Assembly (NCBI GenBank): GCA_024281175.1 | Contig: JAMJTW010000022.1 | Location: 1-64,000 of the forward strand | Source: Candidatus Thiovulum imperiosus | GTDB taxonomy: Bacteria; Campylobacterota; Campylobacteria; Campylobacterales; Thiovulaceae | Reading direction: 5' to 3' | Length of the DNA: 64,000 bases | Part shown: in pieces, positions 5,155 through 41,367 of the stretch | Numbering within the stretch: the stretch's first letter is position 1 | Layout: every line of letters begins with the position of its first letter | The notes under the pieces: generated by a model | Database searches by the model: none | The model's input: the letters and a program-made list of their open reading frames with translations, nothing else | What the model was told of the DNA's origin: nothing | Program-made: the position numbers and the translations under genes

Positions 5155-7692
5155 ACTATAGTTCTCAATCTCATGGAAGTTGAGATATTTATAAATATCC
5201 GCCTCTTTTCCAGCAATTTTAGAAGGAACAATTTTCATATACTCCTCTTTTGATGGAAGTCTTCCAAGCATTGCAGCAACAGCAGCAAGTTCAGCAGAAC
5301 CAAGATAAACTTGAGCACCTTTTCCAAGTCTGTTATCAAAGTTTCTTGTAGAAGTTGAGAAAACAATAGCATTGTCAGCAACTCTTGCTTGGTTACCCAT
5401 GCAAAGTGAACAACCTGGAGTCTCTGTTCTGGCTCCAGCAAGTCCAAATAGTGAGTAGTAACCCTCTTGAATAAGCTGTTTTTCGTCCATTCTTGTTGGA
5501 GGAACAACCCAAAGTCTAACAGGAGCTTGACCCTCACCTTTAAGAACTTCACCTAAAGCTCGGTAGTGTCCAATATTTGTCATACAAGAACCAACAAATA
5601 CCTCATCGATATTGTGTGGTCTCTTTTCATCAGCAAGAATTTCAGAGAGAGTAGCAACATCATCTGGGTCGTTTGGACAAGCAAGAATTGGTTCAGTAAT
5701 TTCGTTCAAGTCGATTTCAATTACTGCTGCATACTCTGCATCAGCATCAGCTTCCATAAGTTCAGGATTTGCTAACCACTCTTTGAATTTATCAACTCTT
5801 CTTTGAATAGTTCTCTTATCTTCGTAACCATCTTCAATCATCGCTTCAAGTAACTTTATATTACTATTCACATACTCAATTACAGGCTCTTTATCCAGTT
5901 TCACCGTACAAGCCGCTGCACTTCTCTCTGCTGAAGCATCAGAAAGTTCAAAAGCCTGTTCTGCTTTAAGAGTTGGTAGACCCTCAATTTCAAGAATTCG
6001 ACCAGCAAAGATATTCTTTTTACCTTTCTTTTCAACTGTAAGAAGACCATCTTGAATTGCTTGGTAAGGAATTGCATTTACTAAATCTCTTAGTGTAATT
6101 CCTGGTTGCATTTCACCTTTGAAAACAACTTTTACACTTTCAGGCATATTTAGAGGCATTGAACCTGTAACACCAGCAAATGCAACAATTCCAGAACCAC
6201 CAGGGAAAGAGATACCTACTGGAAATCTTGTGTGAGAGTCAGCACCAGTTCCAACTGTATCAGGTAGAACCATTCGATTTAGCCAAGAGTGGATTACACC
6301 ATCATCTGGTCGTAGGGAGATACCGCTTCGAGAGGAAATGAAGTCTGGAAGAGTGTTGTGTAATTTTATATCAGCAGGTTTTGGATAAGCAGCTGTATGA
6401 CAGAAAGATTGCATTACAAGGTCGGCACTAAATCCTAACGCAGCAAGTTCTTTAATTTCATCTCTTGTCATTGGTCCAGTTGTATCTTGAGAACCTACTG
6501 TAAGAGTTGTTGGTTCAACATACATTCCAGGTCGAACTCCCGCCATTCCAGTAGCTTTTCCTACCATCTTTTGAGCAAGAGTAAATCCTTTTCCAGTGTC
6601 AGCTGGTTGGTCAGGTCTTAAGAAAATCTCCTCTTCACCCATTCCTAAAACAGCTCTAGCTTTTTTAGTAAGTCCTCTACCAATAATAAGTGGAATTCTT
6701 CCTCCAGCTCGAACCTCATCAGTAATTGTGTTTGGTTTTAGTGAGAAAGTGGAAATCTCAGAACCGTTCTTTTCAGCTCTACCTTCATAAGGGAAAATAT
6801 CTACGACATCACCAGTTTCAAGAGCTGTTACATCTAATTCGATTGGTAATGCACCAGAGTCTTCACTAGTTGCAAAGAAGATTGGAGCGATGATACCACC
6901 AAGAACAACACCACCTGTTCTTTTGTTTGGAACACCATCAATATCTTCTCCCATATGCCACTGAACAGAATTGATACCAGATTTTCTACTACTTCCTGTT
7001 CCAACAACATCACCAACATAAGCTACTGGATTTCCCTTTTTCTTAAGTTCCGCAATAGTTTCAAGTGGATTTTCCATCTTAGCTACAAGCATAGAGTTTG
7101 CATGAAGTGGAATATCACTTCTTGTAAAAGCCTCACTTGCTGGAGATAAATCATCTGTATTTGTCTCACCCGCAACTTTGAAAACCGTAACAGTAATTTT
7201 CTCTGGAATTGCATCTCTATTTAAGAACCACTCAGCATTTGCCCAAGATGTAATTACCTCTGTTGCATATTTGTTTCCAGCTTTGTGAAGTTCTTCAACA
7301 TCATTGAATGCGTCATAAACAAGAAGAGTCTTTTTTAGAGCTTCAGCAGCAACTGCTGCAACTTCTTCGATTTTTAGAGCATTTACAAGTGGAGCAACAT
7401 TGAAACCACCAAGCATTTTTCCAAGAGTCTCAATTGCATCACTTTTAGAGATAGTTGAAACTTCTACTTCTCCAATCACAATCGCATTTAGAAAATCAGC
7501 CTTAACATAAGCAGCGTCGTCCACACCTGGAGCAACTCTATTTTTGATGAGGTCTGTATAGATTTCAAGATTTTCACCAGCTTTAATTCCCTCGATTACC
7601 TGAGCTGTCTGCTCTTTTGTAAGTGGAAGTGGTGGAACACCGAGAGCCTTTCGCTCTTCAACATGTCTATTATAGCTTTCTAAAAATGCCAT
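5143..7692 (-). CDS. acnB: Aconitate hydratase B
   Basis: 849 residues, full length for AcnB (about 850-865). It interconverts citrate and isocitrate in the TCA cycle, here likely the oxidative/reductive cycle of a Campylobacterota. The Fe-S ligands are present: Cys in FVGSCMTN and the Cys pair in GCSLCMGN. The N-terminal HEAT-like and swivel domains precede the catalytic core, the AcnB domain order. The start is ATG. The 3' end overlaps the end of the convergent E2-like gene by 12 bp. A broken second copy of its 3' part lies at 135-850. Confidence 0.97.
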
Positions 7693-35407: not shown

Positions 35408-37243
35408 ATGAGGTATCTAATTTTAGTTTTCCTGCTTTTTGCAGGATGTGGAGAAGTTCCAAAGCCAGAAGTTTCAGGAGAGAGAAATCTTGAGAAAGAG
35501 AAGAAGCGAATTCTTACAAAGCCTACAAGTGATGAAATTCCAGAAGAGTTTCAAACTGAAAAGCGACTTGCTCTTGTAATTGGAAATGATGAGTATGAGA
35601 ATTTTACAAATCTCGATAATGCTCAAAATGATGCTAGGGATATAGGGAAAACTCTTGAGAAATTGGACTTTGAGGTCTTTCGAGTTTTCAACGGAAATCA
35701 GAAAGAGATGGGAAATAAGATAGTTTCATTTGGAAATCTTTTGAAGCAAAACGGTGGTGTTGGTCTTATCTTTTATGCTGGTCACGGTTTAGAGACTGCT
35801 GGGCAAAACTATCTTGTTCCAGTTGATGCAAATATTACAAGTGAAATTCAGATAAGTATGAATGCGATTTCTTTAGAAAGTGTTTTAAAAGTTTTGGAGG
35901 GTGCGGAAAATCGTCTAAATATCGTAATTCTTGATGCCTGTCGAAATGACCCAACCTCATCTTTCCGAAGTCTTCAAAACGGTGGGCTTGTCGCTCCTCC
36001 AACGGCATCAGGAACTTACATCGCATATTCTGCTGATGTTGGTCAAGTTGCTGAAGATGGTAGTTGGAAAAATGGAACTTTCACAAAACACCTTTTAGCT
36101 ACTCTAAAATTTGAGGGTGTGAAACTGAATGATGTTTTTAAAAATGTGAGACTGGAAGTTGAGGAGGAGACAGACGGAAAACAGAGTCCCGCAAGTTATG
36201 ATAAAACTACGGGCGATTTCTATTTCCGACTTCCAAGTAGCACCCAAACCGTCACCTCGAGCGAAACTGTCATTTCGAGCGAAACTAAGATTTCTCCTGA
36301 TGGTCGAAATGACAATACTCCAGAAGTGATTTCAATTGGAGAGAACAAAATCGGAACAAGCAGTGTTGTTTTTGAAGAGAGAAGCAAATTCTCTTTAGGG
36401 ATTTCCACTTCTCCAGCAGATGCAATTGTGAAAGTAAATGGAAAGAGTTTTAAAAGTGGTTCTCTTTTGGAGAGAGGAAAGTATCAGATTTCTATTTCTA
36501 AAAGAGGGTATGAAACCTACAAGTACAATTTGGAACTTCAGAAAGATGAGGTTTTGGATTTCACTCTTCAGAAAACCCATTTTAAACTTAAAATCGATGT
36601 TACAAATGTTTATCCAGAGGGAGTCGTTTTCGACTTTGAAAATGTGAACTTCACAAATGGAATGAAACTTAAAAGAGGAAAATATAAATTCAAAGTTTCA
36701 AAAAGAGGTTTTCACTCAAAAGAGGGCAAAATCGACTTACAGAATGATATGACTTTGAAGATGACTCTTGAGAAGATTTCTGTTCCAAAACCGAAAGTCG
36801 TTGAAACTCCAAAACCAAAAGTTGTTACTTTAAGCAGAAAAGGAGAGTGGGACAAAAGAATTTATCGAGGAGAGCGGAGCTATTCCAAATTTTCAACAAA
36901 TCTTGTAAAAGATAATTTCACAAATCTTGTTTGGCAAAAGAGTGGTAGCTCAAATTTTATGAATTGGGAAAGTGCAAAAAAGTATTGTGAAAATCTCTCT
37001 CTTGATGGATATTCAGATTTTCGACTTCCAACTGTAAAAGAACTCTACTACTTAGCTGATAGAAGTAAATATGACCCAGCAGTAGATAGTAACTATTTCA
37101 ATTTAAAAAGTAACTGGTATTGGTCGATAACAAAATATCACAATAGTAGTTCCTATCCGTGGATTGTCTATTTCTTGTATGGTGATGACAATTGGAATAA
37201 CCAGACTAACGACAATTTCGCGGTCTGTGTCCTCGACTTATGA
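35408..37243 (+). CDS. Caspase-like PEGA lipoprotein with DGR-variable DUF1566 domain (DGR target 1)
   Basis: 611 residues from ATG 35408 (AGGAG six bases upstream; a GTG two codons earlier is less likely). The lipobox is LLFAGC, with Gly after the Cys, predicting outer-membrane anchoring. Residues about 55-280: caspase/peptidase C14 domain with the catalytic His in YAGHG (about 125) and Cys in LDACRND (about 177). A Ser/Thr linker follows (about 280-320). Two PEGA repeats (about 325-385, 390-450). Residues about 480-611: a DUF1566/Lcl-type domain (LPTVKELYYL) ending in the variable repeat VR1, whose last codons read AVCVLDL. This is the usual place for a DGR variable region. It should be a surface or periplasmic protease-like receptor with a diversifiable tip; activity and ligand are unknown. 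Confidence 0.88.
   Translation: MRYLILVFLLFAGCGEVPKPEVSGERNLEKEKKRILTKPTSDEIPEEFQTEKRLALVIGNDEYENFTNLDNAQNDARDIGKTLEKLDFEVFRVFNGNQKEMGNKIVSFGNLLKQNGGVGLIFYAGHGLETAGQNYLVPVDANITSEIQISMNAISLESVLKVLEGAENRLNIVILDACRNDPTSSFRSLQNGGLVAPPTASGTYIAYSADVGQVAEDGSWKNGTFTKHLLATLKFEGVKLNDVFKNVRLEVEEETDGKQSPASYDKTTGDFYFRLPSSTQTVTSSETVISSETKISPDGRNDNTPEVISIGENKIGTSSVVFEERSKFSLGISTSPADAIVKVNGKSFKSGSLLERGKYQISISKRGYETYKYNLELQKDEVLDFTLQKTHFKLKIDVTNVYPEGVVFDFENVNFTNGMKLKRGKYKFKVSKRGFHSKEGKIDLQNDMTLKMTLEKISVPKPKVVETPKPKVVTLSRKGEWDKRIYRGERSYSKFSTNLVKDNFTNLVWQKSGSSNFMNWESAKKYCENLSLDGYSDFRLPTVKELYYLADRSKYDPAVDSNYFNLKSNWYWSITKYHNSSSYPWIVYFLYGDDNWNNQTNDNFAVCVLDL
36269..36313. repeat. REP-like inverted repeat inside the caspase-like gene
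   Basis: GTCATTTCGA (36269-36278) and TCGAAATGAC (36304-36313) are a perfect 10-bp inverted repeat around AAGATTTCTC, the same core as in the intergenic elements. GTCACCTCGAGCGAAAC precedes it. It encodes the Ser/Thr-rich linker between the protease and PEGA domains. Confidence 0.7.
37149..37243 (+). repeat. DGR variable repeat VR1
   Basis: It aligns without gaps to the TR at 37843-37937. Differences in the first 84 positions: six at template A (positions 6, 21, 27, 28, 30 and 36) and one T-to-C (position 9). From position 37 to 88 it is identical to TR, so the last mutagenic event seems to have changed only the 5' part. It ends at the gene's stop codon. Confidence 0.92.
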
Positions 37244-37320
37244 TTTTTTGTTTTTAATAATTTTTCATAAAACCAACCAATTTATTCCAGCTCACTTTCG
37301 GGGCTGGTCTTTCACTCTTT
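37244..37320 (+). promoter_or_regulatory. Conserved hairpin segment downstream of VR1
   Basis: About 77 bp (TTTTTTGTTTTTAATAATTT..., then hairpin CCAGCTCA/GGGGCTGG at 37287-37307) recur almost unchanged after VR2 (39682-39758). Nothing comparable follows the TR. In known DGRs a hairpin or cruciform just past the variable repeat promotes retrohoming. It may also serve as a terminator. Confidence 0.65.
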
Positions 37321-37367
37321 TTGAGCGAATTCGAGAAATCTTTAAAGTTATGTTTATGGAGTAAAAT

Positions 37368-37727
37368 TTGCAAAATAATTATGAAAATTTACCAATTTTT
37401 CGGGAGGCATTAAAACTGAATCTCTATCTTGAAGATGCAGTTAGAAACTTTCCAAAATATGAGAAGTATGGAATTGGCTTTGAATTACGAGAAAATGCCC
37501 GAGAGATTCTCTATTCCATCTCATTTGTCTATTTGGAAAAAGAGAATCTAGCTGAAAATATTCAAATCGTGAGAAAAGAGATAGAGAAGATGAAAACAAA
37601 AATCTATTTAGCAAAAGAGCTAAAGGCTCTCCGAGACTTCAAACAGTTTGAACTTCTCTCAAAAATGGCTTACAACTTGGGACTTCAAGCTGGAGGTTGG
37701 TATAATGCAAATCGCCAGAATTCTTAA
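37368..37727 (+). CDS. avd: Avd-like four-helix-bundle protein of the DGR
   Basis: 119 residues from a TTG start (GGAG eight bases upstream). Entirely helical in pattern and basic toward the C-terminus (KELKALRDFKQFELLSKM, then AYNLGLQAGGW). This resembles the bAvd/23S-intervening four-helix-bundle family, the accessory protein that binds the reverse transcriptase and template RNA. The position target-avd-TR-RT is the same as in the Bordetella phage element. The DNA just downstream of avd is expected to be part of the template RNA. Confidence 0.82.
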   Translation: MQNNYENLPIFREALKLNLYLEDAVRNFPKYEKYGIGFELRENAREILYSISFVYLEKENLAENIQIVRKEIEKMKTKIYLAKELKALRDFKQFELLSKMAYNLGLQAGGWYNANRQNS

Positions 37728-37842
37728 ATTTTTTTAAGAAGTGAGCTATATCATAAGTGCGTCAGAGATGGCAATGTCCATAAAGATAAGGGAAATTAGA
37801 TGGAAAACTCTCTTTTGACTCTTTTAAATTCTCTGATTTTCC

Positions 37843-37938
37843 GTTCCAATTCGTGGATTGTCAATTTCAAGAATGGTAATGACAATTGGAATAACCAGAC
37901 TAACGACAATTTCGCGGTCTGTGTCCTCGATATATGAT
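37843..37938 (+). repeat. DGR template repeat (TR)
   Basis: Non-coding 96 bp whose virtual translation is S-N-S-W-I-V-N-F-K-N-G-N-D-N-W-N-N and so on, with nine AAY codons and one AAG, the typical template design in which A-to-N changes hit codon positions 1 and 2. Both VRs align over its full length. The 3' end differs at CTCGATATATGA versus CTCGACTTATGA in the VRs, probably the IMH*/IMH distinction. Its end merges with the ATG of the reverse transcriptase (37934). Confidence 0.93.
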
Positions 37939-38989
37939 ACTCTCTTTTGAAGAACTCTATCGGGCTTATAAGAGTTGTCAAAAAAGTAAAGCCAACTCAA
38001 TTAGTGCGATAGAGTTTGAGGTAAACCTCATCGACAATCTTTGGAAACTTCATTATGAAATCAATTCCAAAACCTACACTCCAAGTAGATACATCTCCTT
38101 TCTTGCCAACTCTCCAAAAATGAGAGAGATTTTTGCTCCAAGTTTTCGAGACCGAGTAGTTCATCATCTTCTTGTCAATGATTTAGAGCCTATTTTTGAA
38201 CCAACTTTCATCTATGAAAGCTACTCTTGTAGAAAAGGGAAAGGAATTCACACCGCCGTAAAAAGAGTTCAGAAATTTGCTAGAAGAGAGAGAAACCGAT
38301 ACTACCTCCAACTCGATATAAGAAATTTCTTTCTCTCTATCAAAAAGAGATTTCTCTATGAACTTCTGGAAGATGAGATTTCTCGAAAAGTTTCTGATGA
38401 AATCTTAAAAGAGAGAACTCTATATCTCTCAAAAGAGACCATTTTTACAGACCCAACAGAGAACTATCTTTTTAAGGGAAGCCGAAAAGGATACAAGGAT
38501 TTGCCAAAACATAAATCTCTTTTCTACACCTCAAAAGAGAGAGGTTTGCCAATTGGAAATCTAACTTCCCAATTTTTTGGAAATGTCTATTTAAATCCAT
38601 TAGACCAGTATGTGAAGAGAGTTCTGAAAGGGGATTATGTTCGCTATGTCGATGATTTTATACTTTTTGGAAGTAGCAAAGAGGAGTTGGAAGAGAAGAA
38701 GAGGAGTATAGAGTTTGTGGTGGAAAATAATTTGGGTTTAAAACTTAAAGAGCAGTTTCGACTTCGCAAAGTTGAAAGCGGAATAGATTTTCTTGGATAT
38801 ATAACTTTTCCAACTCATATTTTGGTTCGGAAGAGAGTTGTAAATAACTTTAAGTATAAATTGGCTAAATTTATAGAGAGTGAAAAGAGTGGCGATGAGG
38901 TTCGGAAGTGGATAGAGCAGAAAGCCTCCTATTTTGGACACTTTAAACATGCGGATAGCTATCGATTACAAAAGAAGTATTGGAAATGA
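37934..38989 (+). CDS. DGR reverse transcriptase
   Basis: 351 residues. RT motifs in order: YLQLDIRNFFLSI (motif with the first catalytic Asp), GLPIGNLTSQFFGNVYLNPLD (the [LIV]GxxxSQ motif specific to DGR-type enzymes), RYVDDFILFG with YVDD near residue 237-240, and LGLKLKEQF/IDFLGY of the thumb-proximal region. No maturase or integrase domain is present, and its size is usual for DGR RTs. It copies the TR RNA with errors at adenines and writes the product into VR1 and VR2. The ATG lies at the end of the TR. Confidence 0.93.
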   Translation: MILSFEELYRAYKSCQKSKANSISAIEFEVNLIDNLWKLHYEINSKTYTPSRYISFLANSPKMREIFAPSFRDRVVHHLLVNDLEPIFEPTFIYESYSCRKGKGIHTAVKRVQKFARRERNRYYLQLDIRNFFLSIKKRFLYELLEDEISRKVSDEILKERTLYLSKETIFTDPTENYLFKGSRKGYKDLPKHKSLFYTSKERGLPIGNLTSQFFGNVYLNPLDQYVKRVLKGDYVRYVDDFILFGSSKEELEEKKRSIEFVVENNLGLKLKEQFRLRKVESGIDFLGYITFPTHILVRKRVVNNFKYKLAKFIESEKSGDEVRKWIEQKASYFGHFKHADSYRLQKKYWK

Positions 38990-39008
38990 CGATTTCATTC
39001 TTCTATTT

Positions 39009-39122
39009 GTCATTTCGAAATGAGCGTAGCGATTGAGAAATCTTGAAAAAGATATTTCACTCTGTTCAATACAAGGATTTCTCACCCTAAAGGGTTCGAA
39101 AACGAAGTTTCTCTAAATGACA
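39009..39122. repeat. REP-like inverted core, solo copy
   Basis: GTCATTTCGAAATGAGCGTAGC...GAGAAATCTT, then GGATTTCTCACCCTAAAGGGTTCG. The core of the MITE family without its outer ends. Confidence 0.65.
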
Positions 39123-39157
39123 TTTAAAACTAGAAGACTCTTTGGAAAGGATAGAAA

Positions 39158-39268
39158 ATGGATTGGAATAGTTTTGCTGAAGCACTATTTCCGATTGGGA
39201 TTTTAATTGCAGGTCTATTGACCTATTTTGCTCATAAAAAGAACTGGAAAATTGTGGAGTGGTTTTAA
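39158..39268 (+). CDS. 36-residue single-span membrane peptide coupled to DGR target 2
   Basis: ATG 39158 after GGAAAGGA. It encodes MDWNSFAEALF, a hydrophobic span (PIGILIAGLLTYFA) and a basic-aromatic tail (HKKNWKIVEWF). Its TAA overlaps the ATG of the next gene (TAATG), so translation is coupled. No family is known to me. A chaperone, anchor or export partner for the variable protein is possible. Confidence 0.65.
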   Translation: MDWNSFAEALFPIGILIAGLLTYFAHKKNWKIVEWF

Positions 39269-39681
39269 TGAAGAAAATTGTAATTTTGGCTCTTTTCTCT
39301 CTACCTCTTTTTGGAGAGAGATTTGAGATTGTTGGAGATACGATAAAAGATTTTGAGACAGGTCTTTTATGGCAGAGAGAGAGTAGCAGTAATACTATGA
39401 ACTGGAGTAGTGCAGTCTCATACTGTAAAAATCTAAACTTAGCTGGATACTCAAATTGGAGACTTCCACATATTGACGAACTGAAATCGATAGTAAATTA
39501 TGGTGCTTACAATCCAGCCACTTTTAATGGTTTTAAACTAAAAACAACGGATTGGCATTGGAGTTCAACAAAACATAACAAATATAGTTCCGATTCGTGG
39601 ATTGTCTATTTCAAGGATGGTGGTGACGATTGGGGTTACCAGACTAGCGACGATTTCGCGGTCTGTGTCCGTGACTTATGA
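39268..39681 (+). CDS. Small secreted DUF1566 protein, DGR target 2
   Basis: 137 residues from ATG 39268 (a GTG three codons earlier is unlikely). Signal peptide: KKIVILALFSLPLFG. The rest is one DUF1566/Lcl-type domain: FETGLLWQRES, NWSSAVSYCKNL, SNWRLPHIDEL and WHWSSTKH, ending in VR2 with AVCVRDL. It matches the C-terminal domain of the caspase-like lipoprotein, and the pair of Cys (SYCKN and AVCV) is conserved in both. It should be a free or membrane-associated diversified binding domain. Confidence 0.85.
   Translation: MKKIVILALFSLPLFGERFEIVGDTIKDFETGLLWQRESSSNTMNWSSAVSYCKNLNLAGYSNWRLPHIDELKSIVNYGAYNPATFNGFKLKTTDWHWSSTKHNKYSSDSWIVYFKDGGDDWGYQTSDDFAVCVRDL
39587..39681 (+). repeat. DGR variable repeat VR2
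   Basis: Gapless match to the TR. In positions 1-84 all 11 differences are at template adenines (6, 21, 30, 36, 37, 42, 48, 49, 51, 61, 66; nine A-to-G, two A-to-T). Past position 84 two non-A changes occur in the presumed IMH (CTC to CGT), plus the CT/TA difference shared with VR1. Confidence 0.93.
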
Positions 39682-39758
39682 TTTTTTGTTTTTAATAATT
39701 TTTCATAAAATAGACCAATTTATTCCAGCCCCATTTCGGGGCTGGTCTTTCACTCTTT
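39682..39758 (+). promoter_or_regulatory. Conserved hairpin segment downstream of VR2
   Basis: Near-identical to 37244-37320. Here the stem is perfect: CCAGCCCC (39725-39732), loop ATTTC, GGGGCTGG (39738-39745), followed by TCTTTC. Its retention after both variable repeats but not after TR points to a role in targeting. Confidence 0.65.
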
Positions 39759-39859: not shown

Positions 39860-40155
39860 TTGAGAGAATATTTTGTCTATATCCTAACAAATTGGAACAA
39901 CAAAGTTCTTTACATCGGTGTAACAAACGACTTGGCTAGAAGATTAGAAGAGCATCAAAATAAGAGAGATAAAAACAGTTTTACAGCAAAGTATAATCTC
40001 AATAAACTTATCCATTACGAAATATTCTCAGATGTAAGTGAAGCTATATCAAGAGAGAAAGAGATAAAAAATGGAGAAGAGAGAAAAAAGATAAATTAAT
40101 TTCAGAATTTAACAATGAATGGAAAGACCTTTCTGAAATTGCTTATATGCATTAA
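39860..40155 (+). pseudogene. GIY-YIG nuclease (YhbQ type), C-terminus frameshifted
   Basis: TTG start after AAAGGAG. The first frame has FVYILTNWNN, VLYIGVTNDLARRLEEH and SREKEIKNGEE, the GIY-YIG core with Tyr, Arg and Glu, and stops at 40097-40099. A +1 frame from about 40073 continues RREKKDKLISEFNNEW and KDLSE to TAA 40153-40155, the expected end of this family. One missing base (an AATTGG read as AATGG) explains the break. Small GIY-YIG proteins act in DNA repair or are mobile. Confidence 0.75.
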
Positions 40156-40156
40156 G

Positions 40157-40297
40157 AAAAGATTTCTCACCCTAAAGGGTTCGAAATGACGAGTGGGTTT
40201 TGTCATTTCGAAATGAGCGAAGCGATTGAGAAATCTTAAAAAGATATTTCACTTTGTTCAGTACAAGGATTTCTCACCCTAAAGGGTTCGAAATGAC
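40157..40297. repeat. Tandem REP-like cores
   Basis: A half core (GATTTCTCACCCTAAAGGGT... to 40190) followed by a full inverted core (40202-40297), near-identical to 39009-39122. A CACCTCGACTGGAGC fragment follows at about 40317. Confidence 0.7.
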
Positions 40298-40553: not shown

Positions 40554-40674
40554 AAGTATTAAATATCCAATATGCCTTTTAAGGTTTTGTTAATAAACAT
40601 TTCTATAAGATAAAATATAAAGAGTGAGAGCTACCAACTACGCACTCTTTAGTTATTTTCTCAAAAGGAAAACT

Positions 40675-41367
40675 GTGTCGATTATACCAAATATTATAGA
40701 GATGATTGATGATGAACCTCGCGTATCTCATGTTGATATTGCAAAATATACTGACAATAAAATCAAGTCTGTTCAAGATTTAATTACCCGAAATATCGAA
40801 GATTTTAAAGAGTTTGGACACCTCGCGATTTTAAATCGTGGGGAGGTAAATGGAGGAAAAGGCGAACAGCCAAAAGCCTATTTTCTTAATGAACCTCAAG
40901 CAACTCTACTCATGACATATTTGCGAAATAGTGAAGTTGTAAGAAATTTTAAAAAAGAACTTGTTAAACAATTCTTTAAAATGCGAAATGAGTTACAAAA
41001 CCTTTCAGAAATTCCAAACTTTTCAGAACTCCTTTCCAAAAACGAAGAAGCTCTAAAACTCGTGGAACTTTTTGAGGAAACCAAACCTTTTCGCCTTTTG
41101 CTTCTCCAAAAGCTCTTAGGTGAGAAAAGTATCTCTTCTCTTTTTGGTATAGACTTTTCCCAAACCTACTTTCTTCCAACAGAACTTGGAAAGTTACATG
41201 GACTTTCAGGAAGAGAGACAAATCTAAAACTAGAGGCTTTAGGCTTTCAAGTTTCCGAAAACTCCATTTGGAAACTTACCGAAAGTGGAAAAGACTTCGG
41301 AATAGAAGTTTCTGGAAAGTTTTCCCAACTCAAATGGAAACTAGAAACACCTCTATTTGTTATTTAG
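40675..41367 (+). CDS. Rha-family phage regulatory-like protein
   Basis: 230 residues from GTG 40675 (AAAGGA four bases upstream); a GTG at 40624 would add 17 residues without support. The N-terminal half has RVSHVDIAKYTDNKIKSVQ, PKAYFLNEPQATLLMTYLRN and NFKKELVKQFFKMRNEL, the pRha layout. The C-terminal half is Leu-rich and may be an ANT-like or helical domain. Rha proteins interfere with phage growth in some prophages. No other phage structural genes are near, so it is a remnant or a domesticated gene. Confidence 0.78.
   Translation: MSIIPNIIEMIDDEPRVSHVDIAKYTDNKIKSVQDLITRNIEDFKEFGHLAILNRGEVNGGKGEQPKAYFLNEPQATLLMTYLRNSEVVRNFKKELVKQFFKMRNELQNLSEIPNFSELLSKNEEALKLVELFEETKPFRLLLLQKLLGEKSISSLFGIDFSQTYFLPTELGKLHGLSGRETNLKLEALGFQVSENSIWKLTESGKDFGIEVSGKFSQLKWKLETPLFVI

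Follow-up and report, generated by a model that had tools for sequence, protein, structure and literature searches.

Positions 35408-39758 of the Candidatus Thiovulum imperiosus contig JAMJTW010000022.1 (assembly GCA_024281175.1) hold a reverse transcriptase (RT) gene, a short repeat just upstream of it, and two genes that end in near copies of that repeat. Is this arrangement a complete diversity-generating retroelement (DGR), and does it act on the two adjacent genes only? We examined the window (the first 64,000 nucleotides of the contig), the rest of the genome and related genomes. The initial annotation had proposed a complete DGR, and each part tested, namely the RT, Avd, the template repeat (TR) and the variable repeats (VRs), was supported; the locus is confirmed as a complete DGR with the order target 1, Avd, TR, RT, target 2. 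We read it as a cellular DGR acting in cis and in trans, with a probability of about 0.9. Its features are as follows, where IMH stands for initiation of mutagenic homing and AF2 for AlphaFold2.

35408-37243, + strand, target 1: lipobox FAGC, caspase domain at about 35561-36223, PEGA domain at about 36395-36571, Lcl_C/DUF1566 lectin domain at about 36902-37231
37149-37232, + strand, VR1 in target 1: gapless against the TR, 6 of 7 differences at template adenines
37236-37263, + strand, IMH-like 28-mer ACTTATGATTTTTTGTTTTTAATAATTT after VR1: the stop codon lies inside it
37287-37307, + strand, GC hairpin 3' of target 1, imperfect copy (genome-wide hairpin pattern)
37368-37727, + strand, Avd accessory protein: 119 aa, TTG start (phrog_3206, AF2 fold)
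37762-37768, + strand, 5' arm of the leader stem, TCAGAGA: 6 nt past the start of the AGTGCG motif
37830-37836, + strand, 3' arm of the leader stem, TCTCTGA: ends 6 nt upstream of the TR
37843-37938, + strand, TR: extends at its 3' end into the RT start codon
37934-38989, + strand, DGR RT: 351 aa, GLPIGNLTSQ and YVDD (8ub7, phrog_1423, tree)
39268-39681, + strand, target 2: signal peptide and Lcl_C/DUF1566 lectin domain (PF07603, E = 1.5e-28)
39587-39670, + strand, VR2 in target 2: 11 of 11 differences at template adenines
39674-39701, + strand, IMH-like 28-mer after VR2 (28-mer search of the genome)
39725-39745, + strand, GC hairpin CCAGCCCC-ATTTC-GGGGCTGG 3' of target 2 (genome-wide hairpin pattern)

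Adenine-specific differences between template and variable repeats

The TR aligned without gaps to both VRs. Within the first 84 nt, template adenines account for 17 of the 18 differences (binomial p = 1.5e-8), and 13 of the 25 template adenines are altered in at least one of VR1 and VR2, each at codon position 1 or 2 of AAT, AAC or AAG; these counts reproduce those of the initial annotation. When the four fresh VRs of the genome were pooled, 33 differences fell at A and 4 at other bases (p = 7e-14). Calculated from the 15 template-A codons, some 10^14.7 protein variants would be possible, and the altered residues map to strands and loops at the C-terminal end of the lectin domain. The VR of each target occupies the 3' end of a gene with a C-type-lectin fold. 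The VRs had been described as ending at the stop codon; this needs correction, as the TR/VR match stops about 10 nt upstream of it.

The identity of VR1 to the TR from position 37 onward also held up (positions 37-88). Of the 10 adenines before position 37, 6 are altered, and of the 15 from there on none is (Fisher p = 0.001), a boundary that fits partial conversion; no fresh VR other than VR1 had a comparable one. We also scanned the whole window for repeats with mismatches on a single template base. The scan for A recovered the DGR pairs, that for G only their mirror image, and those for C and T no pair. One additional A pair was found at 782-834 and 6072-6124, a 53-nt repeat unrelated to the DGR whose mismatches lie mostly at adenines of one copy.

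Could diversifying selection and gene conversion among ordinary paralogues have produced the targets, with no reverse transcription involved? The family is large, with 34 Lcl_C/DUF1566 domains in the 2.2-Mb genome (several in tandem in one protein, most without any link to the TR), and the similarity of targets 1 and 2 at their 3' ends extends past the VR. Against this, the differences fall at adenines of one template with nearly none elsewhere, silent sites included, and the TR is located between Avd and RT and not within a target gene. In the ES-like sister genome described below, third-position differences at same-residue codons are also lower inside the VR (0.10) than upstream (0.28). We consider this explanation highly improbable.

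The RT, Avd and target proteins

The nearest solved relative of the RT was that of the Bordetella phage BPP-1 (8ub7, E = 1.7e-44), and it also matched phrog_1423 (E = 3e-105). The RT carries the GxxxSQ motif of DGR RTs. A placement outside the DGR clade would have told against the annotation; in a 20-row tree the RT instead grouped with DGR RTs (100/100), inside a set of Campylobacterota relatives and apart from group II and other RTs. The Avd-like protein was likewise borne out. It matched phrog_3206 ('Avd protein of DGR', E = 3e-11), and its AF2 model (predicted local distance difference test, pLDDT, 91.3) superposed on BPP-1 Avd (4dwl) with a template modelling (TM) score of 0.73-0.84; the matches to NF033474 (E = 5.8e-7) and to the Pfam Avd model were below the model cut-offs.

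Target 1 matched PF00656 (E = 4.7e-34), PF08308 (E = 1.2e-10) and PF07603 (E = 7e-24), and both catalytic motifs of its caspase domain, YAGHG (His) and DACR (Cys), are there. The caspase domain had been overlooked in the initial annotation, as had all targets on other contigs. The AF2 model of the target 2 lectin (pLDDT 93.8) had its best match in the Protein Data Bank (PDB) to the Legionella Lcl C-terminal domain (8q4e), followed by C-type lectins.

A search of the locus against Rfam gave no credible family, and promoter and terminator scans scored barely above shuffled sequence. Directly 3' of the DGR lie genes for a GIY-YIG domain protein (39860-40099) and a Phage_pRha protein (40624-41367).

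RNA leader and TR-RT junction

The leader between Avd and the TR contains a (T/A)GTGCG motif and two 7-nt arms complementary to each other, the first at a fixed register after the motif and the second just upstream of the TR. This 7-bp stem was paired in 56 of 56 cells of the comparison across eight distinct loci and was reached by 1 of 20,000 shuffles, a figure that is somewhat flattering because the arms were found by complementarity search in six of the loci. The further loci, L302-L304 and L309, were added later and fit the stem. In a MAFFT alignment of the leaders the stem was scattered, and it was recovered by anchoring on the (T/A)GTGCG motif.

At its other end the TR runs into the RT gene. 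The distance from TR to RT is -5 nt here and -2 to 24 nt in four relatives, against 144 nt in BPP-1, where the spacer recruits RT-Avd and primes complementary DNA (cDNA) synthesis (PMC12875486). No obvious counterpart of that structured spacer was found 3' of the TR at the locus. The leader or the RT coding start may stand in for it.

Targets and 3' signals elsewhere in the genome

The T. imperiosus genome (2,199,814 bases in 36 contigs) was searched for VRs with patterns, and the matching loci were fetched. It has a single DGR RT. The two targets of the initial annotation are both in the window, yet that number is an undercount, as the genome has at least four fresh-looking VRs and three older ones. 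The fresh VRs outside the locus are on contigs C5 and C30, each with at most two non-A differences within the first 84 nt. The older, drifted VRs are on C36, C31 and C25, and their non-A changes are mostly at third codon positions, as would be expected for ageing under purifying selection. Target 1 and these five remote targets are all fusions of Peptidase_C14 (PF00656) and Lcl_C (PF07603). Contig C8 carries a decayed target containing an inserted stretch. We rejected a count of two targets on C25; both copies lie on a 13.9-kb, 99.94% identical inverted duplication, probably an amplification or an assembly artefact, and were counted once. The same duplication may double other counts on this contig.

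The 3' signals follow the targets. The 28-nt post-VR motif has five sites genome-wide, every one behind a VR, and the reversed control had no site. Of eight GC hairpin sites, seven are behind targets or the C8 relic and one, with three mismatches, is on C5. An IMH-like motif and an inverted repeat downstream of the VR, differing from the TR, are thus present in the sequence; the hairpin could alternatively be a terminator, and the role of both elements in homing is putative. Interspersed repeats (TGTCATTTCGA...GAGAAATCTT) were also seen in intergenic positions at 39006-39101 and 40199-40293, and similar repeats lie between VR and hairpin of the C5, C30, C36 and C31 targets.

The caspase catalytic His and Cys are kept in target 1, C5, C30, C36, C25 and three targets of the ES-like genome. 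Hydropathy and lipobox analysis suggests lipoproteins for target 1, C5, C36 and C25 and a signal peptide for target 2. In C30 and C31 a caspase at the N-terminus and a lectin at the C-terminus flank what is likely a single membrane helix.

Sister Thiovulum genomes and the activity of the element

The ES-like genome has 13 dispersed VRs on one common skeleton, and 20 of its 25 variable columns fall on adenines of the imperiosus TR (p = 8e-11). Its targets include three caspase and Lcl_C fusions and one fusion of a UvrD helicase with Lcl_C, in which no export signal was found. RT, profile and TR-permissive pattern searches detected neither a TR nor an RT in this assembly. A gap next to contig C6, which has the target-2 orthologue close to its end, may contain the core; the first 280 nt of that contig hold no RT remnant.

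In a closed genome of a cave Thiovulum, ten places fit that genome's own skeleton and none did so in the reversed control, with further tails recognized by eye. The core here is a relic: Avd is frameshifted, the TR is absent and the RT is reduced to its last ~90 residues, in frame with target 2. Neither a DGR RT nor a match to the cave-type skeleton turned up in two further Thiovulum assemblies, one of which has some related-looking tails.

The cave genome bears on whether the T. imperiosus DGR has recently been silenced, its parts intact in sequence yet idle and its VRs frozen records of past activity. The VR-like tails of the dead cave core are still clean, with a mean minor frequency outside hypervariable columns of 0.042, compared with 0.031 in ES; clean VRs alone are therefore no proof of present activity. 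Drift in the C36, C31 and C25 VRs points the same way. In T. imperiosus, however, RT, Avd, TR and leader each have an intact sequence, and the few non-A differences of its four fresh VRs, set against those at A, argue against this explanation. On balance we regard silencing as unlikely.

Wider relatives

RT relatives in Campylobacterota metagenome-assembled genomes have their own A-specific TR/VR pairs, often in the same layout. DGR-type RTs at E <= 1e-40 were found in 23 of 399 genomes of the order Campylobacterales, some of them probably other kinds of RT. DGR RTs of viral contigs are just ~35-49% identical, and the leader motif is not clearly common to their leaders. One genome of another Campylobacterales family (L126, G015 contig C145) has a different DGR whose target combines caspase, PEGA and FGE-sulfatase domains. 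Its RT groups with that of a Nostoc plasmid DGR (91/94), which suggests that caspase-lectin targets have arisen more than once.

Proposed mechanism and function

The TR-containing RNA would be copied by the RT together with Avd, with errors at adenines, a chemistry that we infer from BPP-1, where it is known. The cDNA would then replace the VR of any target in which the TR skeleton precedes the post-VR motif and the hairpin. Because the genome has one DGR RT but VRs on several contigs with the same 3' signals, targeting in trans is supported.

The targets are C-type-lectin-fold tips on proteins predicted to be secreted, to be lipoproteins or to span the membrane, and most of these proteins include a caspase domain. 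They might serve the envelope as a repertoire of sensors that detect phages, predators or neighbouring cells, and binding would trigger caspase proteolysis; we propose this role tentatively, at somewhat less than an even chance. The same DGR could otherwise diversify adhesins or kin-recognition proteins in veil formation, with the caspase maturing or shedding surface proteins. Signal peptides and lipoboxes place several targets outside the cytoplasm, and Legionella Lcl is the nearest fold. Thiovulum also makes veils of connected cells, and agglomeration of the DGR-dead cave lineage is described as not strongly cohesive (PMC9938260), but this veil correlation is one case. The predicted cytosolic caspase and outside lectin of C30 and C31 form a receptor-like layout, and the ES helicase-lectin target without a detected export signal fits adhesion poorly. 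We find the adhesin role rather doubtful.

Several points weigh against our reading of the DGR and its role. That it is running at present we infer from its sequence. Four other Thiovulum assemblies have no intact DGR RT, one being a relic, and the system has therefore been lost at times. The catalytic Cys of the C31 target is replaced by Ser, there is no caspase in target 2 or in several of the ES targets, and lipoprotein caspases outside the cytoplasm would fit a classical abortive-infection effector poorly.

Comparison with known systems

DGR remote targets, DUF1566 targets and orthocaspase-C-type lectin (CLec) targets have all been published (PMC4891356, PMC6642488, PMC7517822, PMC10907252). 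The Thiovulum DGR resembles that of BPP-1 (mtd-avd-TR-brt) in its target-Avd-TR-RT order, RT and Avd homology and adenine-specific TR/VR pattern, and in a C-type-lectin-fold gene whose VR is at its 3' end and has an inverted repeat downstream (PMC3240598). It differs in being cellular and not tied to a phage tail gene, in having targets on several contigs, in a TR that ends at the RT start codon where BPP-1 has 144 nt between TR and brt, and in a hairpin whose loop is not GRNA and which lies ~50-95 nt past the VR instead of 4-34 nt.

The Treponema denticola DGR (PMC4891356) likewise has one TR/RT and dispersed targets, often lipoproteins, and some strains retain targets without the core. Its isolates are reported to have two to seven targets each (eight target proteins are named for SP23), whereas one ES-like Thiovulum genome has 13 VRs, and Thiovulum adds caspase-fused targets. 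Cyanobacterial orthocaspase-CLec variable proteins (PMC7517822) share the pairing of a caspase-like domain with a DGR-diversified C-type-lectin domain, and the remote variable proteins; Thiovulum belongs to another phylum, its lectin is DUF1566/Lcl_C, and a signal peptide, lipobox or single membrane helix is present in several of its members. The DGR antigen sensors of Thiohalocapsa PB-PSB1 (PMC10907252), also an aggregate-forming sulfur bacterium, have conflict-type effectors near or on CLec targets and one TR used in trans, but there are nine DGR loci with STAND/MoxR partners, while Thiovulum has one core and joins caspase and lectin in a single chain. Our literature text searches, with most subscription papers outside their scope, found no paper on DGRs in Thiovulum, and the text of the cave Thiovulum paper (PMC9938260) does not mention DUF1566.

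Implications

The Thiovulum DGR is real and a variation on known DGR types, with present activity and caspase proteolysis as predictions. A broader proposal, speculative and on the whole improbable, is an old, genus-wide receptor repertoire diversified by DGRs, whose lectin tips would feed caspase (and helicase) effectors, some in a death-receptor-like membrane layout. Giant veil-forming cells would use it for adaptive sensing of phages or of self versus non-self, with an RNA whose covarying leader stem and RT coding sequence replace the BPP-1 3' spacer. The leader stem is a concrete RNA element for DGRs that have no TR-RT spacer. The purpose of cellular DGRs is an open question, for which Thiovulum offers an intact core with trans targets, a sister with 13 dispersed VRs and a closed sister with a naturally dead core. 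The gain, spread and loss of targets and the caspase link are directly testable in wild veils and single cells.

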